Assembly (NCBI RefSeq): GCF_000732625.1
Contig: NZ_JPJI01000032.1
Coordinates: 310,001-374,000 of the forward strand
Reading direction: 5' to 3'
Length of the DNA stretch: 64,000 bases
Source: Nonlabens ulvanivorans
GTDB lineage: Bacteria > Bacteroidota > Bacteroidia > Flavobacteriales > Flavobacteriaceae
Each line of letters starts with the position of its first letter. The stretch's first letter is position 1. Positions 1,320-61,274 of this stretch are shown piece after piece. The position numbers were made by a program, and so were the translations under genes. The notes below the pieces were generated by a model, which made no database searches, was not told where the DNA came from, and saw only the letters and a program-made list of their open reading frames with translations.

Positions 1320-3725
1320 ATGAGATCCTTTAAACCTAAATCCCATTTATCATCAGCATTATCGTTTCTAACAATTATCGCCATCATATGGTATGTATTT
1401 TATAGTCAGACACCATCTGCAGCAGTGGAAGATAGTTTGCCAGCAACTGAGTGGTCTACGGCAAGAGCGCTAGAACACGTTAAGGCGATGTCTGTACAGC
1501 CTCACCATGTAGGTAGTGCAGCCCATGATGATGTAAGAGACTATGTAGTTACTCAACTGCAAGCAATGGGATTGCAAGTTACTACCCAAAAAGGCTACAC
1601 CATGGATCCATGGGGAAACCTGGCAAATCCAGAAAATATTCTGGCACGTATTAAAGGTTCTCAAGAAAACAGTAAAGCTCTTTTATTATTAAGTCACTAT
1701 GACAGCGATCCACATTCTAGTAAAGGTGCCAGCGATGCTGCTAGTGGTGTCGCTACCATTTTAGAAGGTGTGCGCACGTTTCTTGCTCAAAATAAACAAC
1801 CTCTTAATGACATTATAATTTGTATTACTGATGCTGAAGAACTAGGCCTTAACGGTGCAGAACTTTTTGTGAATGAACATCCATGGGCACAAGACGTTGC
1901 GATGGTTCTTAACTTTGAAGCTCGTGGTAGCGGTGGACCTAGTTATATGCTTGTAGAAACTAATGGTGGTAACCGCAAGATTATTGAAGAATTTTCAAAT
2001 GCTGGAGTAGAATATCCAGTGGCCAACTCACTTGCCTACAGTATATATAAAATGATTCCTAATGATACTGACCTCACCGTTTTTAGAAAAGATGGCGATA
2101 TCAACGGACTTAATTTTGCCTTCATAGGTGACCATTACGACTACCATACAGAATTAGATAACTATGAGCGCTTAGATCGTAATACACTAGCTCATCAAGG
2201 CGCCTATTTAATGCCATTGATGAATCATTTATCAAACATTGACCTTAGTGATGAGCTCAAAGTTCCTGAAGGTGATGATTACGTTTATTTCCCTATGCCC
2301 ATCATTAAAATGGTGAGTTTTCCATTTAAATGGCTGCCATTTTTAATTATAGGTAGCGGTTTATTGCTAGTAGTACTCATTGTTTATGGTATTAGAAAAA
2401 GACGCATTTCCTTTGGTCAGATTCTGGCAGGATTTGTTCCGTTTTTAGGTAGTTTAATCATAGGGTATTTATTAAGTAACTATGGTTGGGTAGGAATCAA
2501 AAGTGGCTCTTTTTATGTCGATCAGCAACATGGTTTTCCATACAACGGTTATTGGCTTATCGCAGCAGCGGCAATGACAGCAGCAACCTTGTGTTTCTTT
2601 TTGTATCATAAATATTATAAGAAGGATAATGTAGCTAGTTTAAGTATCGCGCCATTATTTATTTTGTGGCTGGTTTGTTTATTAATAGCATTCCCTGTAG
2701 GTGATGGTGGTTTAATACCAGGTGTATTTTTACCAGGTGCCGGATTCTTTCTAGTACCGCTCATAGCAGGATTGCTTATGGTATGGCTCAATATTAACCA
2801 GCGCAGACCTAGTTACATTTTACTCGTTATTCTCGCGGTACCTGCCTTGTTCATTTTCACACCGTTTGTCAAAGCATTTCCAGTGGCACTAGGTATGGGA
2901 ATTTTATTTGTAGCCGCTATTCTCACCACACTGTTGATAGGTTTATTGATTCCTATTATTGGACATTATCGCAGGAAAGACCTACTATCCTTCATAGGAT
3001 TGATAGCAACGTTAGTTTGTGTGGGATACGCTTTCGCGAAAGCGGAATTTACACCATCACAACCACAATCAACTAGTCTAGTCTACATACAAAACCAAGA
3101 CGACCAGACCGCACAATGGGCCACATACGACGAAGTCCTGACAGACTGGACCAAAGCAAAACTGGGAGAATCGCCAGCAGCAGCCAGCGAACTTAATAAA
3201 AACACCATCGATTCAAAATACGGAACCGGTTTCAGCTATGCAGCCACAGCACCATATAAAGAATTAGCTCCTGTAATGGTAGACACATTAATTGATAGTT
3301 TACACGCAAATTTAAGAACAGTAAAAATGAAAATCTACAGTGAATCTGTCATCCAGCGTTTAGAAGTGTTTTGCGATACGACTTATGTTTTTGAAGACGG
3401 AAAAGTAAACGGTAAAGAAGTTTATAAGGCCAAAGTCTCTAAAAAAGCGCTACCTAATCGATGGGGAAATCGCATGTTGAGCTACTATGTAACTAACAAT
3501 GAACCACTAGAATTAGAGCTTACTTTTAAAGCTGATGTCGAGCCAGAATTCCAGTTCTATGCAGCATCATTTAACCTACTTAAAACCGAGGCGCTAGATG
3601 TAAAACCTAGACCATTAGAGCAAATGAGTATGCCGTTTGTTCTTAACGATGCTATTTTAAGAAAACGCTATATAACACTTAATAGGCCTACCGTAGTAAC
3701 CGATTCAATACTGTCAAATGAATAA
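1320..3725 (+). CDS. Membrane M28-family metallopeptidase
   Basis: An 801-residue zinc aminopeptidase-like protein. An N-terminal membrane anchor (about residues 10-28) is followed by an M28 catalytic domain. Visible zinc and catalytic residues are H126 in SHYDSD, D139 in KGASDAASG, the E173-E174 pair in TDAEELG, and a late His in DHYDYHTE. After residue 330 come about eight to nine hydrophobic segments and then a soluble C-terminal domain. The arrangement resembles the ER/vacuolar Fxna-type M28 peptidases. The active site is probably periplasmic. The gene overlaps the next one by 8 nt, so the two are likely co-transcribed. It contains a copy of the palindrome, read as AFAKA, just after the last membrane segment. 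Substrate unknown. Confidence 0.85.
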   Translation: MRSFKPKSHLSSALSFLTIIAIIWYVFYSQTPSAAVEDSLPATEWSTARALEHVKAMSVQPHHVGSAAHDDVRDYVVTQLQAMGLQVTTQKGYTMDPWGNLANPENILARIKGSQENSKALLLLSHYDSDPHSSKGASDAASGVATILEGVRTFLAQNKQPLNDIIICITDAEELGLNGAELFVNEHPWAQDVAMVLNFEARGSGGPSYMLVETNGGNRKIIEEFSNAGVEYPVANSLAYSIYKMIPNDTDLTVFRKDGDINGLNFAFIGDHYDYHTELDNYERLDRNTLAHQGAYLMPLMNHLSNIDLSDELKVPEGDDYVYFPMPIIKMVSFPFKWLPFLIIGSGLLLVVLIVYGIRKRRISFGQILAGFVPFLGSLIIGYLLSNYGWVGIKSGSFYVDQQHGFPYNGYWLIAAAAMTAATLCFFLYHKYYKKDNVASLSIAPLFILWLVCLLIAFPVGDGGLIPGVFLPGAGFFLVPLIAGLLMVWLNINQRRPSYILLVILAVPALFIFTPFVKAFPVALGMGILFVAAILTTLLIGLLIPIIGHYRRKDLLSFIGLIATLVCVGYAFAKAEFTPSQPQSTSLVYIQNQDDQTAQWATYDEVLTDWTKAKLGESPAAASELNKNTIDSKYGTGFSYAATAPYKELAPVMVDTLIDSLHANLRTVKMKIYSESVIQRLEVFCDTTYVFEDGKVNGKEVYKAKVSKKALPNRWGNRMLSYYVTNNEPLELELTFKADVEPEFQFYAASFNLLKTEALDVKPRPLEQMSMPFVLNDAILRKRYITLNRPTVVTDSILSNE
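3029..3044. repeat. Palindrome copy 1 (CGCTTTCGCGAAAGCG)
   Basis: Perfect 16-bp palindrome inside the M28 peptidase gene. It is read in the AFAKA frame (YAFAKAEF) at the boundary between the last membrane segment and the soluble tail. Confidence 0.97.
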
Positions 3726-4491: not shown

Positions 4492-4615
4492 ATGTATTTA
4501 AGTTTAAAAAGTAATGAAGCGTAGATTTATTTGGTTAAGTTTTGGAGCAATACAAAAAAGTAACAAAGCTGTTCAAAAAATAAAATCATTATAAAACTAT
4601 TCTTAGCTTTCAACA

Positions 4616-6955
4616 GTGAAAAAATTCCTGTTCAAACATAAATTCAAATTAAGCATCGCTTTTATTCTACTCGTGTGGTATACGTTGTGCTTGCCAAAGC
4701 AATTATTTGATGTTCCGTACTCGACGGTAATAGAAAGTAGTGATGGGCGTTTGTTAGATGCGCATATCGCCAGTGATGATCAGTGGCGATTTCCGGCCGT
4801 AGATAGTGTTCCCTATAAATATAAAAAGTGTTTGTTGCAATATGAAGATGCGCATTTTTACGCGCATCCAGGATTCAATCCAGTTTCTATTGTTAAGGCT
4901 TTTAAAGAAAACATGAACGCTGGCAAAGTCGTGCGTGGTGGTAGTACAATTACACAGCAAGTGATTAGGCTTGCGCGAAAAAAGGATAGAAAATACTATG
5001 AGAAATTTATAGAGCTTATCTGGGCAACAAGGCTTGAGTTGAGATTATCTAAAGAAGAAATTTTAGAACTCTATGCTTCTCATGCGCCTTATGGTGGTAA
5101 TGTGATAGGACTCGATATGGCGTCGTGGCGGTATTTTGGAAGAAAACCACACGAACTCAGCTGGGCAGAAAGTGCCACGCTGGCTGTTTTGCCTAATGCA
5201 CCAGGTTTAATTTATCCTGGTAAAAGAGAAAGCCAACTCAGAGAAAAACGAGATGCATTACTGCTCAAGTTAAAAGAGGAAAACATTATTGATGATATGG
5301 ATTATGAACTGGCTGTTTCAGAATCTGTTCCTACTCGAGATTTTAGAGTACCGCAACTGGCACCTCATTTATTGAATAGAGCAAATAAGCAATACGGCAC
5401 TCAAAAAATCAGAACCACGATTGATTATCAAATGCAGGAAACAGTCAACCGCATCGTACAAAATCATCATCATATTCTGAAGCAAAACGGTATTAACAAC
5501 CTCGCCATGTTAGTTCTGGACATTGAAAACCAATCGGTATCTGCTTATGTGGGAAATGCTCCTACTACCAGAGAACACCAGAAAGATGTGGACATTATTA
5601 CCGCTCCACGTAGTACTGGCAGCGTTTTAAAACCCTTTTTATATGCCACCATGCTGGATAATGGCGAACTATTACCTCACAGCCTCGTAAAAGATATACC
5701 TACGGTTATTAATGGTTATAACACACAAAACTTTGACAAGAATTATAGCGGTGCTGTTCCGGCTTCACAAGCCTTATCGCGATCACTCAATGTACCTGCG
5801 GTGCGCATGCTACGCGATCATGGTGTTACTCGATTCTATGACAAATTGCAAGATTTAGGTCAATCACACATCAATCGTGGTGCGGGAACTTATGGACTGA
5901 GTTTGATTATAGGTGGTGGCGAGAGCAGTTTATGGGACATGAGCCATGCTTATCTATCTATGGCAACCATTTTAAAAGGGTACACTCAAACGAGTAGTGA
6001 ATACAATCACAACGTCATGGATGGATTGCACTATGTGGAGGATGATGGAAACGCTTTCGCGAAAGCGGACTTAAAAACAACACCTCATATCTATGGTGCA
6101 GGAAGTATTTACCACACTTTTGAAGCCATGAAAAATGTCAACCGACCGGAAGGCGAAGAGATCTGGCACTTTTTTAATCCTAATCACAACATGGCATGGA
6201 AAACAGGAACCAGCTATGGAAATAGAGACGCCTGGGCGATAGGCGTCACGCCACGTTACGTGATAGGCGTATGGACAGGAAATGCTGACGGAGAAGGACG
6301 TGCCGAAATGACCGGAATCAAAAGTGCGGCGCCAGTGCTATTTGACTTATTCAATAGATTACCACAACAAGAATGGTTTGCGCCGCCGTATGATGATATG
6401 GTTGAAATAGATATCTGTAAAAAGTCAGGTTATCTCGCCACACCTGAATGTGAGATCGAGAAACAATGGATTCCTGCCGTAGGAGAACGCTATGATTCTT
6501 GCCCATACCACAAACTCGTGCAACTCGATGCTACACAATCCCATCAGGTAAATGCAGACTGTGAACCAGTTTCTAACATGGTTGCAAAATCTTATTTCAC
6601 CCTACCACCAGTAATGGCCTGGTACTACCGTAGAACACATCCCGATTATGAACCACTTCCACCCTATCGAGCAGATTGTGAATCACCTGTAGAAAATGTC
6701 ATGACTTTTATAAGACCTAATGCTGGAACGACTATCACGCTCACTAAAAACATAGAAGGAAAAACAAACGAGACCGTTTTTGAGCTTGCCCATAAAATTC
6801 CTAATACAACAGTCTATTGGTATCTCGACGAGGACTATATAACGAGCACTAAAGATTTTCATGAAATTGCATTAAGCGCTGCCCCAGGAAAACATATAAT
6901 TACTGCTGTAGATGAGGATGGGAATGATGTGAAAATGAGTTTAAGGTTTAAGTAA
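4616..6955 (+). CDS. pbpC: Penicillin-binding protein 1C (bifunctional peptidoglycan synthase)
   Basis: A 779-residue class A PBP that polymerises glycan strands and can cross-link them in the periplasm. A short cytoplasmic tail and one membrane segment (residues 12-26) precede the glycosyltransferase domain, which has E77 in EDAHFYAHPG and RGGSTITQQ. The transpeptidase domain has S336-V-L-K339, S390-L-N392 and K529-T-G531. A BiPBP_C-type C-terminal domain follows, including Cys-containing segments near residues 600-660. The start is GTG. A near-consensus -7 box (TAGCTTTC, 4604-4611) sits only 5 bp before it. A palindrome copy is read as AFAKA in a loop before KTG. The alpha-2-macroglobulin partner often next to pbpC is not adjacent. 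Confidence 0.93.
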   Translation: MKKFLFKHKFKLSIAFILLVWYTLCLPKQLFDVPYSTVIESSDGRLLDAHIASDDQWRFPAVDSVPYKYKKCLLQYEDAHFYAHPGFNPVSIVKAFKENMNAGKVVRGGSTITQQVIRLARKKDRKYYEKFIELIWATRLELRLSKEEILELYASHAPYGGNVIGLDMASWRYFGRKPHELSWAESATLAVLPNAPGLIYPGKRESQLREKRDALLLKLKEENIIDDMDYELAVSESVPTRDFRVPQLAPHLLNRANKQYGTQKIRTTIDYQMQETVNRIVQNHHHILKQNGINNLAMLVLDIENQSVSAYVGNAPTTREHQKDVDIITAPRSTGSVLKPFLYATMLDNGELLPHSLVKDIPTVINGYNTQNFDKNYSGAVPASQALSRSLNVPAVRMLRDHGVTRFYDKLQDLGQSHINRGAGTYGLSLIIGGGESSLWDMSHAYLSMATILKGYTQTSSEYNHNVMDGLHYVEDDGNAFAKADLKTTPHIYGAGSIYHTFEAMKNVNRPEGEEIWHFFNPNHNMAWKTGTSYGNRDAWAIGVTPRYVIGVWTGNADGEGRAEMTGIKSAAPVLFDLFNRLPQQEWFAPPYDDMVEIDICKKSGYLATPECEIEKQWIPAVGERYDSCPYHKLVQLDATQSHQVNADCEPVSNMVAKSYFTLPPVMAWYYRRTHPDYEPLPPYRADCESPVENVMTFIRPNAGTTITLTKNIEGKTNETVFELAHKIPNTTVYWYLDEDYITSTKDFHEIALSAAPGKHIITAVDEDGNDVKMSLRFK
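6052..6067. repeat. Palindrome copy 2
   Basis: CGCTTTCGCGAAAGCG inside pbpC, read as NAFAKAD in a loop region of the transpeptidase domain about 50 residues before KTG. Confidence 0.97.
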
Positions 6956-7043
6956 AGTATTGGCAATTAAAGGCTAAATAAAAAATTAACGCACACTAAA
7001 TTCATTCAAATTGAGTTAATTTCATACAACTAAACGACCTTAA

Positions 7044-8962: not shown

Positions 8963-9628
8963 CTAAAGCGACGCAATCACCTTTAACTCATCACTTTCTA
9001 TTCTTGATTTTTCATAACCATTAATGGCTACATAAATCATAGATTGAGCAATCGTTTCTGGTTCTATGCTACGGTATTTTTTAAGAAAACCAATGAGTAA
9101 AGGATCAATAAGCTTTTGAAATTTTTTCCACGCACTTTCAAATTTGCGTTGCTCTTCTCGCTCGCCACCTATTAATGCTGGCTGGACAAAGTAAGCTTCT
9201 TTAAAACCTAGTTTCTCAATATCACGTTCCATTTCTCCTTTGCCTCGGTTGTACATAAACTTACTGTCAGGATTTGCTCCTAGTGCAGATATGGCAATGA
9301 CTTTTTGCACGCCGTTATGCAAAGCGACCTCGGCAACCTGTACTGGTAAATCATGTTCGATTCGATAGTATTCCTCCTTATCTGGTGTTTTGGCTTGGGT
9401 TGTTCCGGTACATATAAATAAGTGATCAGCTTTTAAGAAATCAGTATAAGTAGCCGGATCAAATAAGTCCACGATATGTGATTCATGTTTGCGGTGGTTG
9501 AGTTTAGTACGCTTTCGCGAAAGCGTAATCACACGCTCATATTGTGCATTATCAAATAATAAATTCACTAACCTACTTCCCGTAAGTCCTGTGGCACCGA
9601 TAACAACAGCAGTATATTTCATTAACAT
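8963..9628 (-). CDS. Atypical SDR NAD(P)-binding protein (TIP30/HTATIP2-like)
   Basis: A 221-residue Rossmann protein. VVIGATGLTGSRLV near the N-terminus is the atypical-SDR TGxxGxxG nucleotide site. FICTGTTQAK and IAISALGANP follow the pattern of NAD(P)H-binding proteins related to TIP30. The substrate is unknown. ATG 9628 or ATG 9622 (third residue) could be the start. A palindrome copy is read as TLSRKR at about residues 35-40, right after the second beta strand, where SRKR would be a plausible NADP-phosphate contact. It is divergent from dinB; the two -7 boxes lie 1 bp apart. Confidence 0.82.
   Translation of the reverse strand: MLMKYTAVVIGATGLTGSRLVNLLFDNAQYERVITLSRKRTKLNHRKHESHIVDLFDPATYTDFLKADHLFICTGTTQAKTPDKEEYYRIEHDLPVQVAEVALHNGVQKVIAISALGANPDSKFMYNRGKGEMERDIEKLGFKEAYFVQPALIGGEREEQRKFESAWKKFQKLIDPLLIGFLKKYRSIEPETIAQSMIYVAINGYEKSRIESDELKVIASL
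9510..9525. repeat. Palindrome copy 3
   Basis: CGCTTTCGCGAAAGCG inside the reverse-strand SDR gene. The palindrome extends to 20 bp (9508-9527, TA...TA). It is read in the LSRK frame (TLSRKR). Confidence 0.97.
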
Positions 9629-9639
9629 ATTTCTAGAGT

Positions 9640-9656: not shown

Positions 9657-9660
9657 CACC

Positions 9661-15775: not shown

Positions 15776-16339
15776 ATGAAAAAAATAGTAATTCTAGCAT
15801 CAGGTAATGGTACTAATGCTCAGGCGATTATAAATCATTTTAGCAAAAATGAATCCGTAGAAATCTCATTGGTTTTATCTAATAAACCACAAGCCTATGT
15901 GCTAGAAAGAGCGCAAAAAAATAATATTCCGGCGATGAGTTTTAATAAATTCGCTTTCGCGAAAGCGGGAAAAGTAGAATCTTTATTAAAGGCAGAAAAC
16001 CCAGATTTAATAGTGCTGGCGGGCTTTTTATGGAAAATCCCAGAAAGTCTCGTAAAATTATTTCCAAAAAAAATTATTAACATTCATCCTGCTTTATTAC
16101 CAAATTACGGCGGAAAAGGCATGTATGGTATGAATGTGCATCGCGCTATCATTGAAAATAAAGAAGAAAAAAGTGGTATTACCATCCATTATGTAAATGA
16201 ACATTATGATGAAGGTGCCATTATTGAACAGTTCACGTGTCCTGTTTATCAAAATGATACAGCAGATGATCTAGCCGCACGCATACATGAGTTAGAACAC
16301 TTACATTTCCCAATGGTCATTGAAGAATTACTTGATTAA
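15776..16339 (+). CDS. purN: Phosphoribosylglycinamide formyltransferase
   Basis: A 187-residue enzyme of purine synthesis that transfers formyl from 10-formyl-THF to GAR. The phosphate loop is ILASGNGTNAQAI. The catalytic Asn and His are in INIHPALLPNYGGKGMYG, and the Asp in VNEHYDEGAII. A palindrome copy is read as AFAKAG in the linker before PDLIVLAGFLW. The stop overlaps the rnhA start (TAATG). It is divergent from acpP. Confidence 0.96.
   Translation: MKKIVILASGNGTNAQAIINHFSKNESVEISLVLSNKPQAYVLERAQKNNIPAMSFNKFAFAKAGKVESLLKAENPDLIVLAGFLWKIPESLVKLFPKKIINIHPALLPNYGGKGMYGMNVHRAIIENKEEKSGITIHYVNEHYDEGAIIEQFTCPVYQNDTADDLAARIHELEHLHFPMVIEELLD
15952..15967. repeat. Palindrome copy 4
   Basis: CGCTTTCGCGAAAGCG inside purN, read as FAFAKAG. 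It sits between conserved strands, where other PurN proteins vary in sequence. Confidence 0.97.
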
Positions 16340-18632: not shown

Positions 18633-20531
18633 ATGAGCGATCCATTAAAACACGAGTGTGGTATAGCACTTATTAGACTTCTTAAACCTCTTGAATATTA
18701 TAAAGAGAAATATGGTACGGCATTTTATGGCATCAATAAAATGTACCTAATGATGGAAAAACAGCACAATCGCGGTCAGGATGGTGCTGGATTTGCAAGC
18801 ATAAAATTAGATGTAAAACCTGGTCAACGATACATCTCTCGTGTGCGCAGTAATGAGGCACAACCTATACAGGATATATTTGCACAAATTAATGAGCGTA
18901 TTAATTCAGAATTAGAGGAAAATCCAGAAATAAAAGATGATGTCGCTGCACAAAAAGCACAAATCCCTTACATCGGTGAATTGATGATGGGCCATGTACG
19001 ATATGGTACCTTCGGTAAAAATAGTATTGAATCAGTACATCCGTTTTTACGTCAGAACAACTGGATGCATCGCAACCTTATCATGGCTGGTAATTTTAAC
19101 ATGACTAACGTGTTTGAGTTATTTGACAAATTAGTAGAACTAGGACAGCATCCTAAGGACATGGCAGACACCGTAACCGTTATGGAAAAGGTAGGTCATT
19201 TTCAAGATCGTGAGGTTTCTAAATTATATAAAAAATTCAAGGCTGAAGGACTTTCTAAAATGGAATCCTCACCTAAAATAGCTGAACAACTTAACGTTGC
19301 CAAAGTTTTAAAGAAAAGTGCAAAAGATTGGGATGGTGGCTATGCCATGGGTGGACTTATGGGACATGGTGACGCTTTCCTATTAAGAGACCCATCGGGT
19401 ATTAGACCAGCATACTACTATCAAGATGATGAAGTAGTTGTCGTAGCTAGTGAACGTCCAGTAATTCAAACTGCGTTTAACGCACCGTTTGAAGAAGTAA
19501 AAGAACTGGATCCAGGTAAAGCTATTATCATTAAAAAGAATGGTAAAGTAAGTATTGAACAAATACTGAAACCACTAGAACGTAAGGCCTGTTCTTTTGA
19601 ACGTATTTATTTCTCTCGTGGTAGCGATGCCGAGATTTATCAAGAGCGTAAAAAACTGGGGCATTTATTATTCCCTAAAATCATGGAATTCATTGATCAT
19701 GATATAGATAACACCGTTTTTTCATACATTCCAAATACGGCCGAAACTTCATTCTATGGTATGGTAGAAGCGGCACATGCCGTTTTAAATGAACAAAAAC
19801 GAGATGCTATTATTGCTGGAGAAGGTAAACTGACCGCACAACAAGTTGAGGATACGCTTTCGCGAAAGCTGCGAACTGAAAAGATTGCGATTAAAGATGC
19901 AAAGTTAAGAACCTTTATCACTGAGGATTCTTCTCGAGACGATCTCGTAGCACACGTTTACGATGTAACCTATGGTGTTGTAAAAGAAAACGATAACCTA
20001 GTAATCATCGATGATTCTATCGTACGTGGAACAACACTTAAAAAATCCATTCTTAAAATGATGGACCGCTTGAAACCGAAGAAAATTGTAGTTGTTTCTA
20101 GTGCACCACAAATCAGATATCCAGATTGTTATGGGATAGATATGGCCAGATTAGAAGGACTAGTTGCTTTTAGAGCAGCACTTGCTTTACATGAAGATCG
20201 TGGAACCTATGACACTGTAGAGGACATTTATAAAAAATGTAAATCACAGATAAACTTTAAGGATAAGGATGTTGTCAATTATGTGAAGGAACTCTATGCA
20301 CCGTTTACAGATCAAGAAGTGTCTGATAAGATAGGTGAGTTACTCTCAGACGATGATTTAAATGCAGAAGTGAAAATCGTTTACCAAACCGTAGATAATT
20401 TACACAAAGCCTGCCCTAAAAACTTAGGTGATTGGTATTTTACAGGTGATTACCCTACTAATGGTGGAAATCGTGTGGTGAATCGTGCTTACATCAACTT
20501 CTTTGAGAAAAATGATGAGCGAGCTTATTAG
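18633..20531 (+). CDS. purF: Amidophosphoribosyltransferase, long Bacteroidota form
   Basis: A 632-residue enzyme, longer than the usual 460-510 of PurF. The glutamine-amidotransferase nucleophile is probably C9 in HECGIAL, so a short propeptide would have to be removed. HNRGQDGAGFASI and HVRYGTFG fit the class II amidotransferase fold. The PRPP-binding loop is VIIDDSIVRGTT. The extra length lies mostly in insertions of the N-terminal half and in the last 100 residues. Bacteroidota often carry a second standard purF, so this may be the paralogue; its exact reaction is inferred. A palindrome copy is read as TLSRKL. Confidence 0.85.
   Translation: MSDPLKHECGIALIRLLKPLEYYKEKYGTAFYGINKMYLMMEKQHNRGQDGAGFASIKLDVKPGQRYISRVRSNEAQPIQDIFAQINERINSELEENPEIKDDVAAQKAQIPYIGELMMGHVRYGTFGKNSIESVHPFLRQNNWMHRNLIMAGNFNMTNVFELFDKLVELGQHPKDMADTVTVMEKVGHFQDREVSKLYKKFKAEGLSKMESSPKIAEQLNVAKVLKKSAKDWDGGYAMGGLMGHGDAFLLRDPSGIRPAYYYQDDEVVVVASERPVIQTAFNAPFEEVKELDPGKAIIIKKNGKVSIEQILKPLERKACSFERIYFSRGSDAEIYQERKKLGHLLFPKIMEFIDHDIDNTVFSYIPNTAETSFYGMVEAAHAVLNEQKRDAIIAGEGKLTAQQVEDTLSRKLRTEKIAIKDAKLRTFITEDSSRDDLVAHVYDVTYGVVKENDNLVIIDDSIVRGTTLKKSILKMMDRLKPKKIVVVSSAPQIRYPDCYGIDMARLEGLVAFRAALALHEDRGTYDTVEDIYKKCKSQINFKDKDVVNYVKELYAPFTDQEVSDKIGELLSDDDLNAEVKIVYQTVDNLHKACPKNLGDWYFTGDYPTNGGNRVVNRAYINFFEKNDERAY
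19855..19870. repeat. Palindrome copy 5 (one mismatch at the edge)
   Basis: CGCTTTCGCGAAAGCT: the 14-bp core is perfect and the last base differs. Inside the PurF-like gene, read as TLSRKL. Confidence 0.92.
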
Positions 20532-22321: not shown

Positions 22322-22329
22322 TACCTTTG
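22322..22329 (+). promoter_or_regulatory. -7 box that fixes the addA-like start
   Basis: TACCTTTG, an exact TAnnTTTG match, ends 3 bp before ATG 22333 and covers the alternative TTG start at 22327. The first transcribed base should be at or near the ATG, so the mRNA is probably leaderless. Confidence 0.55.
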
Positions 22330-22332
22330 AGT

Positions 22333-25300: not shown

Positions 25301-25503
25301 CAGAAGGCAAGAAGTTTATTCCAGATCGACTTATAATAGACAATGGTCAGGTAACGATTATTGATTACAAAACAGGCGCGCAACTAGAGAAACATAGAGA
25401 TCAGCTAGATTATTATGCTGCCTTATTACTACAAATGGATTATAAAATAAAAGAAAAGGTATTGATATACACCGATGAGTTAAAGGAACTCGTCTGGAAT
25501 TAA
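22333..25503 (+). CDS. UvrD/AddA-like helicase-nuclease
   Basis: About 1056 residues from ATG 22333 (a TTG two codons earlier falls inside the promoter). It has all superfamily 1 helicase motifs: Walker [62 protein letters not shown] and YVAFTRA. A C-terminal PD-(D/E)xK nuclease has DRLIID and TIIDYKTG. This is the AddA/RecB layout for resecting double-strand breaks. The likely AddB-like partner starts 2.8 kb downstream, beyond kbl and ompA. A palindrome copy is read as SAFAKAP. Confidence 0.9.
24309..24324. repeat. Palindrome copy 6
   Basis: CGCTTTCGCGAAAGCG in the addA-like gene, read as SAFAKAP in a helical region of low conservation. Confidence 0.97.
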
Positions 25504-28327: not shown

Positions 28328-31069
28328 ATGAATACATTCTTACATGACGTTATTAGCTCGCTTTATTCTCAAAACTACAACCTCAGTAAACTTACTTATG
28401 TAGTTCCTAGTAGAAGAGTTGCAACCTTTCTCAATAAAACCATTGCTGCTTTTTTAGAACAACCTATTTTCGAACCTATTGTATATAGTGTTGAAGACTT
28501 CATTAGTCACACAGCACAAGTTGAAATTGCAAGCGATGTAGATTTATTATTTGATTTTTATAACAGTTATCTAAAAATAGAAGGAAATAATACCGCAGAC
28601 TCATTAGATGAATTTATAACCTGGGCACCAACTATTCTTAAAGATTTTAATGAGATAGATCGTTTTCTAGTACCACCTTCAGATTTTTTTAATTATCTAG
28701 GGAATTTAAAAGAACTAGAGCAAGGACATTGGTCCATCCTAGAACCCAAGACAGAGATGATTGAAAAATATCTTCATTTCTGGAAACGATTAGAACTATA
28801 CTATAGCCAGTTTACAAAAGACTGTACCATAAATGGGATAGTTTATCAAGGTCTAGCTTATAGACTCGCTTTCGCGAAAGCGGAATATCAATCCACCCAG
28901 TACAGTAAAGAAACACCAATTATTTTTTTAGGGCTCAATGCTCTCAACAAGGCAGAAGAGGAAATTATTAAGATATTTCTAGATAGCAATAATGCCAAAA
29001 TTTTTTATGACAGTGATCTTTATTTTCAAGAGAATGAATATCATGAAGCTGGTCGTTTTATAAGACGATATAAAAGTCACTGGAATTATTTTGAACAGCA
29101 CAATTTAAATATAACCAGTAATAATTTTAACGCGCCAAAAAGTATAAATATCATAGGAACATCTGGCCCTATAGGTATGTGTCAGGTGGCAGGTAAACTT
29201 ATCAATAAGCTCAATCTAGAATCGATTAATCTGGACACCACAGCCATAGTTCTAGCAGATGAAGCTCTTCTATTACCTCTTTTAAGCGCTATACCCGAAA
29301 GTGCTAAGCATCTCAATATTACTATGGGATTAACCTTAGATAAAACACCGCTTGCAAGTTTCTTTAATCAGCTCATCAAACTCAAAGTTGAAGCCACAGA
29401 TCAAGGTTTTTATTATAAGAATGTAATAGCAGTTTTAGAATCTCACTTTAGCTCTCTTTTAGATCAGACAGCTGTAAAAGAACTTATGAACACAATTCAT
29501 AAAGAAAATCTAGTTTATATACCCTTTCTAGAGGCTAATCAGGACACTGATAACTTATACATTAATCAATTAAGGTCGGAAGTTATTACGACAACAAACT
29601 TAATTAACTATCTCAGTAATATTTCTGATGCTTTACAATCGAAACTAATCGAAAATGAAAACAAGAGATTAGAGCTCGAACAACTATTAGGTATACACAG
29701 TGTCATTGAACAAATAAGGTCAATCATAGATGTGCAGTCAGGTATTACCGATTTAAGAACTATTCAATATTTATTTAAGCAATTTTTACCTCAAAAGAAA
29801 TTAGACTTTATAGGCGAACCTGTTAAAGGGCTTCAAGTAATGGGACTGCTTGAAACTAGAGCATTAGATTATGAAAACATCATTATGCTATCGGTTAATG
29901 AAGGCATTTTACCAGCAGGTAAATCTACTGCATCGTACATACCTTATGATATGAAAATCAAGTTTGGTTTACCGACTTACACAGACAAAGACAGCGTTTA
30001 TGCATATCATTTTTATAGGTTATTACAACGATGCAATAACGCTAATTTCATATACAACTCAGAAACAAATAGTTTAGGCGGTGGAGAAAAAAGCAGGTTT
30101 TTAATGCAATTAGAAACTAGTGGTATTAAAAATCATACGATCAATCATAGTCTGTATGCCAATAAAATTACTACTGAAAAAACAGATACTCTTTCCATTA
30201 ACAAAGACAATCACTACTTTGACAGACTCGGTAAAATAGCAATATCTGGCTTTTCACCATCTAGTATCACAAGCTATATTTATAATCCAATCGATTTTTA
30301 CAAATCTAAGATCCTAAAAATTAATGACATAGAAGAGGTAGAAGAAGATATGGCGGCTAATACTATGGGAACCATGATTCATAAAACTCTTGAGTCCTTA
30401 TACCTACCATATATCGATCAAGTATTAGATAGAATTCATTTTAAAGACATAAGAGAAAGATTAAATAATGCCATCAATACGGCCTATCTGGATAGCTACA
30501 ACACCATACATGATCCACAAGGGAAAAATATTATTATGTATGAGGTGGCTAGACATTACGTCAGTAAAATGATTGCTTATGATGAAGAGCTTGTAAAAAA
30601 TGGAAACATATTAATTATAAGAAAATTAGAAGTTCGTTATTCTACAACTATTGAAATTAACTCGATAGGAAGTGTAAAACTTCATGGTGAGGTAGACCGT
30701 ATTGATGAGCTCAATGGTCAAATTAGAATAATAGACTACAAATCTGGAATGGTTGGTAAATCAAATGTTGGTGTTGAGCCAGATAACTATCAAGCATTAA
30801 TTACAGATTATGATAAATCAAAAGCTTTTCAAGTTTTGATGTATGCTTTTCTATTTTCTAAAAACAATGAGTTTACAGAATGTGTCGCAGGTATCATAAG
30901 TTTTAAGAATTTTAAAGAAGGATTTATACCCTACTCGGTTAAAAATGGTAGGTCGTTTCAGCCACGACCTATCGATGTGTTTGAACTAGAGAAATTTGAA
31001 GAACAATTACATCAAATAATCATAGAGTTATACAATAAAGATATAGCACTAACTGCAAAGGATCATTAA
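28328..31069 (+). CDS. AddB-like PD-(D/E)xK nuclease
   Basis: A 913-residue protein. The N-terminal two thirds have the shape of an inactivated helicase (TYVVPSRRVATFLNK, then VMGLLETRALDYENIIMLSVNEG), as in AddB. The C-terminal third holds a PD-(D/E)xK nuclease: SPSSITSYIYNPIDFY, GTMIHKTLE, GEVDRID and IRIIDYKSG. The four-cysteine iron-sulphur cluster of Firmicutes AddB is not evident. It probably works with the addA-like protein upstream on DNA breaks. A palindrome copy is read as LAFAKAE. The stop is directly followed by the next ATG (TAAATG). Confidence 0.85.
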   Translation: MNTFLHDVISSLYSQNYNLSKLTYVVPSRRVATFLNKTIAAFLEQPIFEPIVYSVEDFISHTAQVEIASDVDLLFDFYNSYLKIEGNNTADSLDEFITWAPTILKDFNEIDRFLVPPSDFFNYLGNLKELEQGHWSILEPKTEMIEKYLHFWKRLELYYSQFTKDCTINGIVYQGLAYRLAFAKAEYQSTQYSKETPIIFLGLNALNKAEEEIIKIFLDSNNAKIFYDSDLYFQENEYHEAGRFIRRYKSHWNYFEQHNLNITSNNFNAPKSINIIGTSGPIGMCQVAGKLINKLNLESINLDTTAIVLADEALLLPLLSAIPESAKHLNITMGLTLDKTPLASFFNQLIKLKVEATDQGFYYKNVIAVLESHFSSLLDQTAVKELMNTIHKENLVYIPFLEANQDTDNLYINQLRSEVITTTNLINYLSNISDALQSKLIENENKRLELEQLLGIHSVIEQIRSIIDVQSGITDLRTIQYLFKQFLPQKKLDFIGEPVKGLQVMGLLETRALDYENIIMLSVNEGILPAGKSTASYIPYDMKIKFGLPTYTDKDSVYAYHFYRLLQRCNNANFIYNSETNSLGGGEKSRFLMQLETSGIKNHTINHSLYANKITTEKTDTLSINKDNHYFDRLGKIAISGFSPSSITSYIYNPIDFYKSKILKINDIEEVEEDMAANTMGTMIHKTLESLYLPYIDQVLDRIHFKDIRERLNNAINTAYLDSYNTIHDPQGKNIIMYEVARHYVSKMIAYDEELVKNGNILIIRKLEVRYSTTIEINSIGSVKLHGEVDRIDELNGQIRIIDYKSGMVGKSNVGVEPDNYQALITDYDKSKAFQVLMYAFLFSKNNEFTECVAGIISFKNFKEGFIPYSVKNGRSFQPRPIDVFELEKFEEQLHQIIIELYNKDIALTAKDH
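28867..28882. repeat. Palindrome copy 7
   Basis: CGCTTTCGCGAAAGCG in the addB-like gene, read as RLAFAKAEY. Confidence 0.97.
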
Positions 31070-33410: not shown

Positions 33411-33426
33411 CGCTTTCGCGAAAGCA
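33411..33426. repeat. Palindrome copy 8, intergenic (edge mismatch)
   Basis: CGCTTTCGCGAAAGCA: perfect 14-bp core at 33412-33425, last base differs. It lies 13 bp after the MATE stop and 28 bp before the -7 box of the next unit. Confidence 0.92.
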
Positions 33427-36865: not shown

Positions 36866-37520
36866 TTTGTAATGCTTTTACAGCGGTGACTATGGTGTTT
36901 TCTACTGTGGTTTTATGTGCCACTTTCACATTTTGAGTATATATTCTTGCCGCTTCTGCGGTTGTTTCACCTATGCATATAGCTAGATGAATATTTTCAG
37001 GATTCGCTTTCGCGAAAGCGTGAACACCACGAGGACTGAAGAACATTACAGCATCAAAAATACAATCAAATGACTTTTCTACCGCGATAGAATCATACAC
37101 TTTTACCTCTATAAAACTTATTTGTGTCGATAAAAGTGCCTGTGGCAGCTCATCACGACGATGTGCACCACAGAAGTAGACAAATTTTAAGTGAGAATAT
37201 TTTTCTATAATAATCTGGGCTAGCTGTGCTGCGTTTTCTGCTTGCTCTTTTATGAAATAACCTTTCTCAATTAAATGAGATGCTGTTTTCTCACCTACTA
37301 CATAGAAATCATGATCAGATATTTGTAACGAACTTATAGCTTCTAATGCATTTGAACTGGTGACGATAATATGTTCACAATGGAGTCCAGTGGCATCATA
37401 GTCAATCTTTTTTATCTCAAGCACATCAAAATGCACCATCGACAATCCAGTAGCAAGTAACAACTCTGATTGTGCAGCAGTGAGCTTTTTAGTTGAAAGA
37501 ATACGTTTATTAATATTCAA
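36858..37520 (-). CDS. hemD: Uroporphyrinogen-III synthase
   Basis: A 220-residue enzyme closing hydroxymethylbilane to uroporphyrinogen III. The sequence is divergent, as is usual for HemD, but [41 protein letters not shown] and [13 protein letters not shown] fit the two-lobe fold. Position before hemE supports the call. hemC, which often precedes hemD, is absent from the 320 bp upstream. A palindrome copy is read as HAFAKAN directly after the conserved FFSPRGV, near the active-site cleft. Confidence 0.9.
37005..37020. repeat. Palindrome copy 9
   Basis: CGCTTTCGCGAAAGCG in hemD (reverse strand), read as HAFAKAN right after the conserved SPRGV. Confidence 0.97.
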
Positions 37521-41610: not shown

Positions 41611-41626
41611 CGCTTTCGCGAAAGCG
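41611..41626. repeat. Palindrome copy 10, intergenic
   Basis: CGCTTTCGCGAAAGCG, extending to a 20-bp palindrome (41609-41628, TA...TA) between the divergent lipoprotein and gpsA genes, about 90 bp upstream of gpsA's probable -7 box. Confidence 0.97.
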
Positions 41627-46135: not shown

Positions 46136-46151
46136 CGCTTTCGCGAAAGCA
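46136..46151. repeat. Palindrome copy 11, intergenic (edge mismatch)
   Basis: CGCTTTCGCGAAAGCA with perfect 14-bp core at 46137-46150, 3 bp beyond the T run of the preceding terminator. Confidence 0.92.
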
Positions 46152-53471: not shown

Positions 53472-53475
53472 AATC

Positions 53476-55317: not shown

Positions 55318-55439
55318 TTACCATTTCCTACAGTTTAACTTAAAATAAAACTCTTTAACGATTTTCATTCTTACTTCAATTTATTTATAGTCACATTGAT
55401 CAATAAATCGCAACTTTAGATCTCTGAAAATAAAATATT

Positions 55440-55838
55440 ATGAAGACTTCTAAAATTTGGATCATAGATGATAATCCTATCGACTCATACATTATTAAAA
55501 CGATGCTAGAGTTAAATGAATTATCAAAAGATATTCATGTTTTTTCAAATAATAAAGAGGCCTTAGAAAGTTTAGAAGAACTGGATAAAAGTGATTCAAC
55601 TGATTCTATTCATATCATTACAGAGAATAAAACGAACGCTGTAAATGGATGGAAATTAATTAAAAAAGTATCTAATAAAATAATAGAGCAAAAAGGAAAA
55701 CTCAATTTGAAATTTCACATGACTAGTGAAAAATACTCAGAAAAAGATCTGAAAAAATTTGCTGAAACAGCACCTCTTTACTCTTTAAACAAAAAGCCTT
55801 TGAGATTAGATCACCTAGTAAACATGCTCAACTATTAA
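55440..55838 (+). CDS. Response-regulator receiver with Glu in place of the phospho-Asp
   Basis: A 132-residue single receiver domain. The acidic pair D10-D11 (IIDDNPID), the switch Thr/Ser (MTSE, about residue 95) and the Lys of KKPL (about residue 120) are kept. The phospho-accepting Asp, aligned through the NGW of the usual LDxNMPxMNGW pattern, is E62 (IITENKTNAVNGW). This would make it unable to take phosphate, or permanently active-like. It has no output domain. It follows the PAS kinase and is convergent with recJ, with a 4-nt overlap of the 3' ends. Confidence 0.85.
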   Translation: MKTSKIWIIDDNPIDSYIIKTMLELNELSKDIHVFSNNKEALESLEELDKSDSTDSIHIITENKTNAVNGWKLIKKVSNKIIEQKGKLNLKFHMTSEKYSEKDLKKFAETAPLYSLNKKPLRLDHLVNMLNY

Positions 55839-57532
55839 GCTTTAATATCTTTAAGCATTAATTGTAAAGTAACATTACCATTCCATTCGTTCTCACTAAT
55901 GGTATAAGCAATATCAAATTTGTCATCGTTTTTTATAAGGTCAATCTTTTTACCCAGATGAAAACCTATAGCATCAATGGCATGTCTATCATTCTGTTTT
56001 TTTACCACTTTGATCTTTAAATGATCTTCTGCTTTCCCTACGCACTTACCATATCCTGTATCCATAACCTTTTCAGTCATAAAAACAGGTCGCATATTAC
56101 TCGGCCCATATGGTGCCATTTGTTGTAAAATTCGATAAAATTTCGGCGTTATACTTCCCAGTGGTAATATGGCATCAATTTTTATTTCTGGTGTCAGGTG
56201 TTGCTTTTCAATAGTAGCACAAACTACCTCTTCAAATCGAGCCTTAAAAGAACGATAATTTTCAGGTTTTAATGTTAAACCAGCAGCATATTTATGACCA
56301 CCAAACTGCTCTATAAACTCACTACATTGCTCAAGCGCGTTATACACATCAAAACCGCTTACACTACGTGCGCTAGCTGCTAGATACTCACCGCTTTTTG
56401 TAAAGACTAGAGTAGGTCTGTAATAAGTTTCAATTAATCGAGACGCAACTATCCCTATGACTCCTTTGTGCCAGTCTTCCTGGAAGACTACGGTAGTAAA
56501 AAGTTCTTCCTCTTTATTATTAATAATTTGCTGTTTTGCCTCTTCTGTTATCGACTGATCTGCCTCTCGTCTATCTGCATTATACTCTTCAATTTCTGCG
56601 GCAATACGTTGTGCCTCTTTAAAATCATCAGTCACCATTAACTCCACCGCATGTAGAGCGTGTTTCATTCTACCAGCCGCATTGATGCGTGGTGCTATAA
56701 TAAAAACAACATCAGTAATTGTTAAAGTATCTTTCTTTAATTGATGAATGATTGCTTTAAAACCAGCACGTGGGCTCGTATTAATCACATTCAATCCGTG
56801 ATAAGCTAATATTCTATTTTCATCTACTATAGGAACTATATCTGCACCTATAGCCGTAGCAACTAAATCTAAATACGGAATTAAAATATCAAAATCCCAA
56901 TCATTTGCCTCTACCAGCGCCTGACACAATTTAAATCCAACACCACAACCACATAACTCATCAAATGGATAAGAACAATCATTACGCTTAGGGTCTAGAA
57001 CAGCAACAGCCGCTGGTAATTGCTTTCCAGGTCTATGGTGGTCACAAATTATAAAATCAATGCCTTTTTCACTTGCATAAGCAACTTTATCAATAGCTTT
57101 CACACCACAATCCAGTGCTATAATTAGAGAAAAATCATTATCTGAGGCAAAATCTATTCCTTGATAACTCACTCCATAACCTTCACCATATCGATCTGGT
57201 ATGTAAGTAGCTACTCGATCATAAAAACTCAATAAAAAGGTAGACATTAATGCAACACTAGTAGTTCCGTCAACGTCATAATCCCCATAAACTAATATAT
57301 TCTCATTATTCCCTATGGCTTTTTGGATGCGTTTTACAGCCACATCCATATCCTTCATTAAAAAAGGATCATGTAATTCATTAAGATCTGGTCTGAAAAA
57401 GGATTTCGCTTTCGCGAAAGCGTCCACACCACGTTGCACCAGCAAACCAGCAAGAAAAGAGTCTATACCTAGCTCTTGAGCCAGTTTCTCTTGTGTTGCT
57501 ATATCGGGTTGAGGTTTTAAGGTCCAGCGCAT
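55835..57532 (-). CDS. recJ: Single-stranded-DNA exonuclease RecJ
   Basis: A 5'-3' single-strand exonuclease of recombination and mismatch repair. From ATG 57532 it has 565 residues (E. coli 577); the frame extends to 57577, but the -7 box lies between. MRWTLKPQPD is the usual N-terminus. Catalytic motifs include VYGDYDVDGTTS, ALDCGVKA, ICDHHRPG, CGCGVGFKL and the DHHA1 part with QFGGHKYAAGLTL. A palindrome copy is read as DAFAKAK in the N-terminal segment, replacing a variable RecJ stretch. Confidence 0.95.
   Translation of the reverse strand: MRWTLKPQPDIATQEKLAQELGIDSFLAGLLVQRGVDAFAKAKSFFRPDLNELHDPFLMKDMDVAVKRIQKAIGNNENILVYGDYDVDGTTSVALMSTFLLSFYDRVATYIPDRYGEGYGVSYQGIDFASDNDFSLIIALDCGVKAIDKVAYASEKGIDFIICDHHRPGKQLPAAVAVLDPKRNDCSYPFDELCGCGVGFKLCQALVEANDWDFDILIPYLDLVATAIGADIVPIVDENRILAYHGLNVINTSPRAGFKAIIHQLKKDTLTITDVVFIIAPRINAAGRMKHALHAVELMVTDDFKEAQRIAAEIEEYNADRREADQSITEEAKQQIINNKEEELFTTVVFQEDWHKGVIGIVASRLIETYYRPTLVFTKSGEYLAASARSVSGFDVYNALEQCSEFIEQFGGHKYAAGLTLKPENYRSFKARFEEVVCATIEKQHLTPEIKIDAILPLGSITPKFYRILQQMAPYGPSNMRPVFMTEKVMDTGYGKCVGKAEDHLKIKVVKKQNDRHAIDAIGFHLGKKIDLIKNDDKFDIAYTISENEWNGNVTLQLMLKDIKA
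57407..57422. repeat. Palindrome copy 12
   Basis: CGCTTTCGCGAAAGCG in recJ (reverse strand), read as VDAFAKAKSF close to the N-terminus. It comes after the longest gap between copies (11.3 kb). Confidence 0.97.
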
Positions 57533-57537
57533 AGTTT

Positions 57538-57545
57538 CAAATGTA
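57538..57545 (-). promoter_or_regulatory. -7 box for recJ
   Basis: The reverse strand reads TACATTTG, an exact TAnnTTTG match, 5 bp before ATG 57532. The predicted leader is about 2 nt, and the longer frame start at 57577 lies upstream of it. Confidence 0.5.
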
Positions 57546-57571
57546 ATACCAAAATATGATTTGGTTCTTAG

Positions 57572-57590
57572 TATCACAATTTCTGTGATA
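57572..57590. promoter_or_regulatory. Operator-like inverted repeat in the recJ / AhpD-like promoter region
   Basis: TATCACA-ATTTC-TGTGATA: perfect 7-bp arms with a 5-bp spacer, between divergent recJ and the AhpD-like gene. It has the size of a dimeric repressor site and could control one or both genes. The half sites resemble TGTGA but point outward compared with CRP sites. Confidence 0.4.
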
Positions 57591-57629
57591 GATAATTATT
57601 AACTTGCCCTAGAACTTACAATTTTTAAT

Positions 57630-58220: not shown

Positions 58221-58225
58221 TCTCC

Positions 58226-59029: not shown

Positions 59030-59114
59030 TTTCAACATTTGTCTGATTGTATGCTTTGCTAAAATAGAATAAATTTGTCGCCTAAGATTTTATAAGCCAT
59101 ACAAACTAATTTTA

Positions 59115-61274
59115 ATGAACAAACACGATTTACTTAAAAAGCATTTCGGTTACGACAGTTTCCGACCTTTACAAGAACAAATTATAAATGATGTTCTTAA
59201 TCACAAAGACCTGATGGTTGTTATGCCTACTGGTGGTGGTAAGTCTATGTGTTTCCAGTTACCATCATTAATGCTAGATGGTATCACCTTAGTCGTTTCT
59301 CCACTTATTGCTTTAATGAAGGATCAAGTTGATTCTCTAAGAGCAAATGGCATTACAGCTGGTTATTTTAACAGCTCTCAAGTCGGTACAGAGCAGCAAG
59401 AAATGCTACAACTATTAAAAGAGAATCAACTAAAATTACTTTATGTAGCACCAGAAAGCATTCAACTTTTATTACAACATTTAAAGCCTACAGACGTCTC
59501 TTTAATTGCGATAGATGAAGCACATTGTATCTCTACATGGGGTCATGATTTTAGACCAGCATACACACAACTGGCTTATCTTAAACAATCGTTTCCACAG
59601 GCTAGTTTAATAGCACTAACCGCTACTGCAGATCGCGCTACACGTGCCGATATTAAAAAGCAACTTGCCATATCTCACGCTCAGGAATATGTAGCATCCT
59701 TTGATAGACCTAATTTAACTCTAGAAGTACGACCTGGTAACGACCGGTTAGCTCAAGTTCGTCGTTTTCTTAAAAAGTATAAAGACGACTCTGGTATTAT
59801 TTACTGCTTGAGTAGAAAATCATGTGAAAAACTAGCAGATAAGCTGTCCAGTCTAGGTTTTTCTGCTGCTGCTTACCACGCTGGGTTAGAACATCGCTTT
59901 CGCGAAAGCGTACAAGAACAATTCATTAAAGATGAAATTAAGATAGTATGTGCGACCATCGCATTCGGTATGGGAATAGACAAATCTAATGTGCGATTTG
60001 TGATTCATTATAATATGCCTAAAAACATTGAAGGATATTATCAAGAAATCGGTCGTGCAGGGCGCGATGGTATTGATGCTCATGCCCTACTATTCCATAG
60101 CTATGCAGACATGATTCAACTGCGCAATTTTGCAGGAGATAGTGGTAATAGTGAAGTGCAAATTGCAAAGCTAGAGCGCATGAAACAATTTGCCGAAGCA
60201 CTCACCTGTCGCCGTCGTATGTTACTATCTTATTTTAATGAATATCTAGAAAATGATTGCGGTAACTGTGACGTATGCCTTAATAAACCAGACTTCTTTG
60301 ATGCAACATTAATAACTCAAAAAGCACTAAGTGCTGTTTATAGAATGAAAGAAAGGGCATCACTCAATTTATTAATCGATGTATTGCGCGGTGCACAAAA
60401 TGCAAGTGTGATCGATAGCGGTTTTCAATCTATAAAAACTTATGGCGCAGGACGTGATATATCATGGAATAACTGGCAACAATATATCATACAAATGATT
60501 AATCAAGGATTGCTAGAGATCGCCTTTCATGAATTTAACCATCTTAAATTAACACCGCAGGCACAAGCTGTACTTTTTGAAAAACAAAAAGTACAACTAG
60601 CTGTTATCCCTAAACCCGAAGAGCTTGCTGCAAGAAATGCAAAAGCAGCACAAGAAGCCTTGCCTAGTGATATTAATAAAGATTTGTATGCAGGATTACG
60701 CAAGTTAAGAATGCAAATCGCGTCCCCAGAGAATCTGGCACCGTACATGGTTTTTAGTGACGCCACATTAAAAGACATCGCCTCTAGAATTCCACTAACA
60801 ATTGATGAGTTTGAAGATATTACTGGTGTCGGAAAACACAAGTTAGATACCTATGGAGAGTCATTTTTAAAACTCACGCAAGGTTTTAAAATGATGCGCG
60901 AGGGCGATTTTATATATCGTGTAGTGATTTCAAAACCTAAGAAGAAAAAAAAGAGCGGTCCAAAAAAAGACACTGTAATGGAAAGTGTAAAGCTCTACTG
61001 GGCTGGAAAAACCCTTGAAGAAATATCTGAAATTAGATCACTTAAAGTAGACACGATACTATCTCATCTAGGAAAACGATATGTAAGTCATAAAGATGTT
61101 GATTTAAACGCACATATTTCACAAGAAGAACTTGCAGAAATTGAACCATTATATGAAAGTTATGAGAAAGAAAATGCACTCAAGCCCATATTTGAAAAAT
61201 TCAATGGAAAATACAGTTATGGAAAATTGCGTCTCGCCATGTATTTAATAGAAGCTACAACCACTGTAAAATAA
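59115..61274 (+). CDS. recQ: ATP-dependent DNA helicase RecQ
   Basis: A 719-residue 3'-5' helicase. Walker A is MPTGGGKSMCFQLP (about residues 35-48), Walker B IDEAHCISTWGHDFRPAY, and the motif VI region IGRAGRDG. The zinc-binding domain has CRRRMLLSYFNEYLENDCGNCDVC. A winged helix and an HRDC domain (residues 515-590) follow, then a C-terminal extra of about 90 residues with a helix-turn-helix-like part (KTLEEISEIRSLKVDTILSHL). A palindrome copy is read as HRFRESVQ between conserved HAGL and QEQF; it replaces a variable helix. The gene is 7 bp upstream of the methyltransferase gene. Confidence 0.96.
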   Translation: MNKHDLLKKHFGYDSFRPLQEQIINDVLNHKDLMVVMPTGGGKSMCFQLPSLMLDGITLVVSPLIALMKDQVDSLRANGITAGYFNSSQVGTEQQEMLQLLKENQLKLLYVAPESIQLLLQHLKPTDVSLIAIDEAHCISTWGHDFRPAYTQLAYLKQSFPQASLIALTATADRATRADIKKQLAISHAQEYVASFDRPNLTLEVRPGNDRLAQVRRFLKKYKDDSGIIYCLSRKSCEKLADKLSSLGFSAAAYHAGLEHRFRESVQEQFIKDEIKIVCATIAFGMGIDKSNVRFVIHYNMPKNIEGYYQEIGRAGRDGIDAHALLFHSYADMIQLRNFAGDSGNSEVQIAKLERMKQFAEALTCRRRMLLSYFNEYLENDCGNCDVCLNKPDFFDATLITQKALSAVYRMKERASLNLLIDVLRGAQNASVIDSGFQSIKTYGAGRDISWNNWQQYIIQMINQGLLEIAFHEFNHLKLTPQAQAVLFEKQKVQLAVIPKPEELAARNAKAAQEALPSDINKDLYAGLRKLRMQIASPENLAPYMVFSDATLKDIASRIPLTIDEFEDITGVGKHKLDTYGESFLKLTQGFKMMREGDFIYRVVISKPKKKKKSGPKKDTVMESVKLYWAGKTLEEISEIRSLKVDTILSHLGKRYVSHKDVDLNAHISQEELAEIEPLYESYEKENALKPIFEKFNGKYSYGKLRLAMYLIEATTTVK
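59895..59910. repeat. Palindrome copy 13
   Basis: CGCTTTCGCGAAAGCG in recQ, read in the RFRES frame (residues 261-265), the only copy in that frame in this window. Confidence 0.97.

Follow-up and report, generated by a model that had tools for sequence, protein, structure and literature searches.

Which process would set the same 16-bp palindrome thirteen times into the window, as we call the whole 64-kb stretch of DNA analysed here, inside genes as well as between them? The initial annotation had listed 13 copies, three of them with an edge mismatch, in genes and in spacers, and each part of that description held. All 13 copies of the 14-bp core (GCTTTCGCGAAAGC) were recovered at the coordinates below, with none in 100 dinucleotide shuffles, and a search tolerating up to three mismatches to the 16-mer returned the same 13 places and no others. 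The 16-mer is perfect at ten places and carries one mismatch, at the last base of the 3' edge, at 19855, 33411 and 46136; ten copies lie within ORFs and three between genes. The sites are listed with the pentapeptide that they encode and, where recorded, their state in the relatives G001, G003, G016 and G004; no strand is assigned to any of them.

3029..3044, perfect 16-mer in ORF 1320-3725(+), weakly peptidase-like; frame AFAKA; core identical in G001, G003, G016 and G004
6052..6067, perfect 16-mer in the penicillin-binding protein 1C gene 4616-6955(+); frame AFAKA; identical in G016, one base altered in G001, split by a 24-nt insertion in G003
9510..9525, perfect 16-mer in ORF 8963-9628(-); frame TLSRK; identical in G003 and G016, one-base gap in G001
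15952..15967, perfect 16-mer in ORF 15776-16339(+); frame AFAKA; identical in 4/4 alignable relatives
19855..19870, 14-mer with 3' edge mismatch in ORF 18633-20531(+); frame TLSRK; identical in 5/5 alignable relatives, down to ~75% DNA identity
24309..24324, perfect 16-mer in the AddA/RecB-like gene 22327-25503(+); frame AFAKA; counterpart at about the same codon (1960-1984) in 18/21 Nonlabens loci
28867..28882, perfect 16-mer in the AddB-like gene 28328-31069(+); frame AFAKA
33411..33426, 14-mer with 3' edge mismatch, intergenic, directly past the stop at 33397
37005..37020, perfect 16-mer in ORF 36858-37520(-); frame AFAKA
41611..41626, perfect 16-mer in the spacer of divergent genes; core retained in G003, G016 and G004 despite a differing spacer, one-base gap in G001
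46136..46151, 14-mer with 3' edge mismatch, intergenic
57407..57422, perfect 16-mer in recJ 55835-57577(-); frame AFAKA
59895..59910, perfect 16-mer in recQ 59115-61274(+); frame RFRES; GCTTCCGCGAAAGC in G001 and G016, identical in G003 and G004

Distribution across genomes and along the chromosome

Enrichment extends over the genome and the genus, as had been proposed: the window genome (3.21 Mb, 45 contigs) holds 566 core copies, with none for a reversed, uncomplemented control, and all 22 Nonlabens relatives examined carry 288–857 copies each. Whole-genome counts thereby rule out a local artefact confined to 64 kb. That the genus is Nonlabens is made very probable by a rhodopsin of G019, which matches the chloride pump of entries 5fjg and 5g28 along its full length (E ~5e-149); PMC4999514 gives Nonlabens marinus S1-08 as the origin of a pump of this kind. 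Allowing two mismatches to the 16-mer raises the count in the window genome only to 682 (control, 5). The 16 non-Nonlabens genomes of the same comparison, one from another genus of the family and 15 from the order, contained no copy. A draw of 397 family genomes, the window genome included, yielded 80 with any copy, comprising four Nonlabens with 566–664, G226 with 408, G242 with 857 and all others with at most 19. In a draw of 395 genomes from the phylum, again including the window genome, 22 had any copy, with a maximum of one per genome outside Flavobacteriaceae.

A quick-search tree of a single protein, AddA, comprised 54 rows (21 of the 23 Nonlabens, 30 further genomes, G023 and two order outgroups; two Nonlabens with fragmentary AddA were omitted). 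Nonlabens formed a single clade to which the motif-rich G226 and G242 are not sisters, these two clustering elsewhere in the family with the motif-poor G180 (nine copies) at a support of 100 for the trio. Their AddA genes carry the word at 2825 and 2456, whereas most Nonlabens have it at 1960-1984 or 647-650. Since the word is common to these lineages and its placement is not, a putative reader probably arose or was taken up on more than one occasion. Within the family, the Nonlabens clade of this protein (window 22327-25503) sits on a long branch (0.51).

Spacing is more even than chance. The coefficient of variation (CV) was 0.52–0.57 in four related genomes, and at most 1 in 5000 random placements was as even in each; the 264-kb sample of the window genome contained no gap below 1 kb among 44 (7 expected). 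Among the 94 sites listed for G004, 5 of 93 gaps fell below 1 kb (18.4 expected) and the CV of 0.92 dropped to 0.56 once four gaps above 15 kb were removed. Spacing is looser in G242 (CV 0.69; 2/52 gaps below 1 kb, 10.3 expected) and G226 (CV 0.82; 0/42, 6.4 expected). By a simple ORF call, 15 of the 45 sites in the window-genome sample are intergenic, in 7.4% of the DNA. The 67% of sites in ORFs is near the 65% reported for Haemophilus uptake sequences, the figure for Neisseria gonorrhoeae being 35% (both from PMC1939737). The widest gap in the sample holds a gene for an 1838-aa alpha-2-macroglobulin, and a search of this gap for RNA families returned none. A canonical parS is present in the sample separately from the palindrome. 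Site density in this stretch, which ends near parS (45 sites in 264 kb), is close to the genome mean (566 in 3211 kb), indicating no strong origin bias.

Footprint, conservation and protein imprint of the sites

The unit is longer than reported: a 14–16 bp core lies within a symmetric footprint of ~50 bp whose 5' side is C-poor and whose 3' side is G-poor. On either strand, the DNA 5' of the core has little C and is rich in G and T. In a profile folding both sides of 69 sites from three Nonlabens samples (138 half-sites), C occupied position -1 in 89% and was not depleted at -2 (21%), then fell to 0–5% at -4 to -7 and to 2–9% at -8 to -18, except for 17% at -14, compared with 18–21% in the genome. 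The half-sites are also T-rich, with T favoured at -3, -4, -7, -10, -12 and -13; several of these are third codon positions in the main frame, indicating that codon freedom shapes the signal in coding DNA. Spacer sites are C-poor as well, the avoided base making up 5.7% at 2–18 bp, 10.6% at 19–36 bp and 15.4% at 37–90 bp. G242 displays the same signature, and G226 a weaker and shorter one (C at -1 in 63%). The earlier view that copies share no flanking sequence therefore needs qualification: the flanks are unrelated in sequence, yet have this degenerate signature in common.

Single sites are strongly conserved in the 264–270 kb of syntenic sequence compared among the window genome, G001, G003 and G016. 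G003 retains 42 of the 45 window-genome sites without change, G016 retains 37 and G001 retains 33, most of the rest being one- or two-base variants; one site is disrupted by an insertion in G003, and one site each lacks an alignment in G016 and G001. Core identity was 0.976–1.000 against 0.87–0.905 in the surrounding DNA, dropping to background within ~20 bp of the core. Even in G004 (~65–76% identical), all eight alignable window sites are intact, the other five having no alignment. Beyond this range, DNA 20–160 bp from the sites showed no clear excess of conservation over shifted controls (50, 182, 21 and 475 of 500 shifts equally high), G016 alone scoring high with 21/500, and no clear recombination footprint beside the sites emerged.

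The 45 one-mismatch variants in four Nonlabens samples, not independent because the genomes are related, fall at position 5 (29), 6 (11), 1 (3) and 7 (2), and never at 2–4. Such unevenness is what a binding protein would tolerate, judged from variant positions. The profile differs in G242 and G226, where position 2 holds 3/17 and 1/6 of the one-mismatch variants. G001 has more one-base variants than its relatives, single-base deletions among them, reflecting decay or assembly error; sequencing errors at modified bases were considered for these variants and dropped, as other genomes carry them too, in smaller numbers. Inserts of ~18–24 nt were seen inside the palindrome at three unrelated places (the G003 ortholog of 6052, and islands in G123 versus G048 and in G372 versus G344), two of which have GTCGAAGG-type letters in common, as though the palindrome were a preferred target of another small repeat.

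In ~30 of 224 ORFs, the amino-acid sequence at the site is set by the DNA word. Among the 30 coding sites of the 264-kb sample, 22 encode AFAKA, four RFRES and four TLSRK. There are 24 instances of AFAKA in 81,660 residues, 22 of them coded by the motif, against 0.08 expected from residue make-up, and this excess implies that the force acting on each site is sufficient to change proteins. The pentapeptide is absent from 96,360 residues encoded by 14 loci of other Flavobacteriaceae and occurs 23 and 19 times in the motif-rich G242 and G226, respectively. A signal at the DNA level thus overrides protein sequence at hundreds of places within one genus.

Islands, acquired DNA and phages

All 16 copies in the motif-poor G112 lie within 78 kb of one contig, a stretch encoding copper/silver-type efflux, P-type ATPases, a multicopper oxidase and Eco57I-type methyltransferases. 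Kindred stretches occur in other motif-poor genera, ~69–96% alike in the pairs listed, with many sites kept and some decayed. In a tree of an island gene (30 of 39 places, from the 28 of 36 genomes in which it was found), copies from motif-poor hosts are interspersed with those from motif-rich ones (10 label changes; mean after shuffling, 9.8), G112 pairing with G013 and G123/G137 with G019. On the simplest reading, in which we infer the direction, metal-resistance islands would have been exported from motif-rich hosts into motif-poor genera. Whatever its function, the palindrome can serve as a marker with which to follow genes leaving these bacteria, as the islands illustrate. Compared with plasmids, island DNA gave partial matches at 60–80% identity to 17 records, none covering 80% of the query, and none of the matches listed came from Flavobacteriaceae. 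Several motif-poor hosts have large ParB-domain proteins (ParB_N hits of ~600–616 aa, e.g. L329:1181-2980) encoded close to motif clusters, possibly as part of integrative elements.

Two motif-free stretches of G004, totalling 34 kb and picked for lacking sites, carry Wadjet genes and a secretin/RHS cluster, respectively. The first (G004:C4:299001-314000) encodes Wadjet-type genes (JetD and an SbcC-like ATPase); the second (G004:C4:333001-352000, ~20 kb) encodes a secretin, a PilB-like ATPase and RHS genes. Both look acquired, as expected of fresh arrivals, a resemblance to be read with their selection for lacking sites in mind. Uptake sequences are described as under-represented in newly acquired segments (PMC7811141).

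Two closely alike phages recorded from a Nonlabens host contain no copy in 35.5 kb each and are annotated with their own ERF and YqaJ recombination genes. Uncultivated phage contigs bear motif copies with host-like flanks: three viral contigs alike in ORF sizes (L220, L241, L244) hold two copies 4480 bp apart, with flanks that are mostly host-like. L244 encodes capsid and portal proteins, and the capsid gene of one motif-bearing phage contig is 45% identical to that of Cellulophaga phage phi39:1. In a viral collection, 109 of 120 loci among the matches listed carry a single copy over a wide GC range; with at least 120 loci, mostly single-copy, these matches yield no rate.

Candidate readers of the signal

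Hundreds of copies, fairly even spacing and imposed amino-acid strings imply that something in the cells reads the word as a signal, most likely to recognize their own DNA. We favour, at a probability of roughly 0.4, a lineage-specific self-recognition signal resembling uptake sequences and maintained by biased transfer. The putative reader, a dimer that binds DNA and is located either at the cell envelope or along the import path, would prefer site-bearing DNA; such DNA would enter and recombine more often, so that the site would spread and be repaired by biased transfer (molecular drive) even where proteins change. Per-site force, relatively even spacing and intergenic share match the outcome of biased DNA import in Haemophilus and Neisseria, as set out in PMC7811141 and PMC1939737; a scarcity in acquired DNA, which the two G004 stretches picked for lacking sites may reflect, would match it too. 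Naturally competent flavobacteria exist, and the related Riemerella columbina takes up DNA sequence-selectively with a preference for its own (PMC7965970); among the matches listed in open-licence literature, as far as their text was available, no report of competence in Nonlabens appeared. The initial annotation's general reading of a DNA-recognition signal is thus supported, and the role itself stays at the level of inference.

The likeness to DNA uptake sequences (Neisseria DUS, Pasteurellaceae USS) lies in hundreds of exact copies at relatively even spacing. T-rich flanking segments are shared with USS, and a one-third intergenic share with the Haemophilus sequences; the scarcity of uptake sequences in new DNA may have a counterpart in the acquired-looking stretches, selected as these were for lacking sites. 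Here, however, the core is a 14–16 bp palindrome in a symmetric ~50 bp footprint, sites are 4–9 kb apart, the host belongs to Bacteroidota, with no type IV pilus ATPase over the cut-off in 11 of the 12 motif-rich genomes examined, and the uptake role is putative. PMC1939737 describes known uptake sequences as not palindromic, and PMC7811141 places those of H. influenzae ~1 kb apart. A PilB/PilT-type ATPase (PF00437) exceeded the family cut-off in 1/12 motif-rich and 4/25 motif-poor genomes, without a link to the motif; 11 of the 12 therefore seem to lack the type IV pilus through which known uptake sequences act. The palindromic form, the wider spacing, the missing pilus ATPase, the looser pattern in G242 and G226 and the presence of the motif on some phage contigs all count against an uptake signal, as do the lack of clearly raised conservation 20–160 bp from the sites and, among the literature matches listed, of any report of Nonlabens competence.

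More tentatively still, the palindrome might be a third, independently evolved code of DNA self-recognition: a palindromic signal of ~50 bp that is read without a pilus, was gained separately by two or more flavobacterial lineages, writes fixed pentapeptides into about one in eight proteins of the sampled stretch and tags genes exported on islands. Such a code would be the first in Bacteroidota, as far as the open-licence literature found shows. If the palindrome is an uptake signal, the long-standing question of why such sequences arise could be put to the test in a third lineage, unrelated to the others and using a different import machine; should it serve the nucleoid or repair instead, its size and regularity are unlike the systems compared here.

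A site for a putative nucleoid- or chromosome-organizing protein is the next candidate, though a doubtful one: a dimer every 4–6 kb would wrap or bridge ~50 bp, the spacing setting the loop size. The long palindrome with its symmetric flanks, the even spacing with few close pairs, the presence of copies in genes and spacers, the conservation of single sites and the tolerance profile would all suit it. It would nevertheless require selection strong enough to change proteins at each of several hundred sites, and the absence of a strong origin bias (density near parS close to the genome mean) does not favour it. ParB or Noc as the reader was rejected by an indirect test, since a canonical parS exists separately in the window-genome sample and 11 of 12 motif-rich genomes have a single ParB hit, with no extra paralogue (two hits in G019). 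The sites of parS, Noc, MatP and SlmA are likewise palindromes of 13–16 bp bound by a dimer, here a putative one, but number in the tens and occupy biased chromosome zones, whereas the present copies run to hundreds and are spread out. According to PMC1939737, uptake sequences are less even than a compaction signal should be.

It is unlikely that the word is a bidirectional Chi-like signal read by a resection enzyme of the AddAB/RecBCD type, with a G/T-rich 5' strand favouring RecA loading; being palindromic, such a signal would work from either side. One site per ~4–6 kb is comparable to the density of Chi in E. coli (1008 in 4.64 Mb, from a table in PMC1939737), and the C-poor, G/T-rich 5' flank on both strands, the long AddA branch of Nonlabens and the recombination genes of both motif-free Nonlabens phages point the same way. 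Yet the site is enriched between genes, and identity beside it shows no clear local rise. G226 and G242 share the site although their AddA is no nearer that of Nonlabens than other family members are (34% and 37% identity to the window's AddA, against 35–40% in the other 28 genomes, an indirect comparison limited to AddA). This palindrome gives no strand preference; the Chi sites known so far are short, lack symmetry and are recognized on a single strand.

Resemblance to HIP1 of cyanobacteria, suggested in the initial annotation, was not borne out, for the inner palindromes showed no enrichment independent of the 14-mer in the window-genome sample. A DNA methyltransferase or restriction enzyme reading TCGCGA or CGCG, which we regard as very improbable, would account for the perfect palindrome with its NruI-type centre, and seven C>T changes at position 6, like 6/17 one-mismatch variants of G242, could fit cytosine methylation. 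In the 264-kb window-genome sample, however, 45 of 46 occurrences of TTTCGCGAAA lie inside the 14-mer, and TCGCGA outside it numbers 21 against 22.1 expected; the corresponding counts are 51 and 70 in G242 and G226 (40.1 and 57.3 expected). A word of 14 bp plus a 50 bp footprint exceeds what known type II enzymes read. HIP1 is also a highly iterated perfect palindrome found genus-wide in genes and spacers, but it is only 8–10 bp long and far denser, and here the flanks matter. Its density is 5648 in 3.57 Mb (a table in PMC1939737). Outside the motif, CG is under-represented in the same sample (6148, with 8157 expected from base composition).

We accordingly class the palindrome as a genome-wide iterated signal sequence that belongs to none of the DUS, HIP1, Chi or parS families, each failing a tested feature, by indirect tests for Chi and parS. 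The 14-mer was not found printed in open-licence literature, and among the matches listed there, in the text available, no such motif is named for Nonlabens; the inner 10-mer does occur there, in ten papers, with no title among them concerning Flavobacteriaceae.

The spread of a tiny REP- or MITE-like palindrome is the least probable explanation of all, despite the dispersed copies and the few other short inserts inside the palindrome, given that motif-bearing and motif-less sites align mostly without gaps, copies within genes are in frame with no common insert or duplication, and positions are common to species that are ~70% alike. Alignments of relatives contradict a mobile element and bear out the earlier statement that this is not a classic one: where orthologous sites diverge, the change is mostly one or two substitutions or the gain or loss of 1 bp, and one spacer site is altered at 8–9 bases without a gap.
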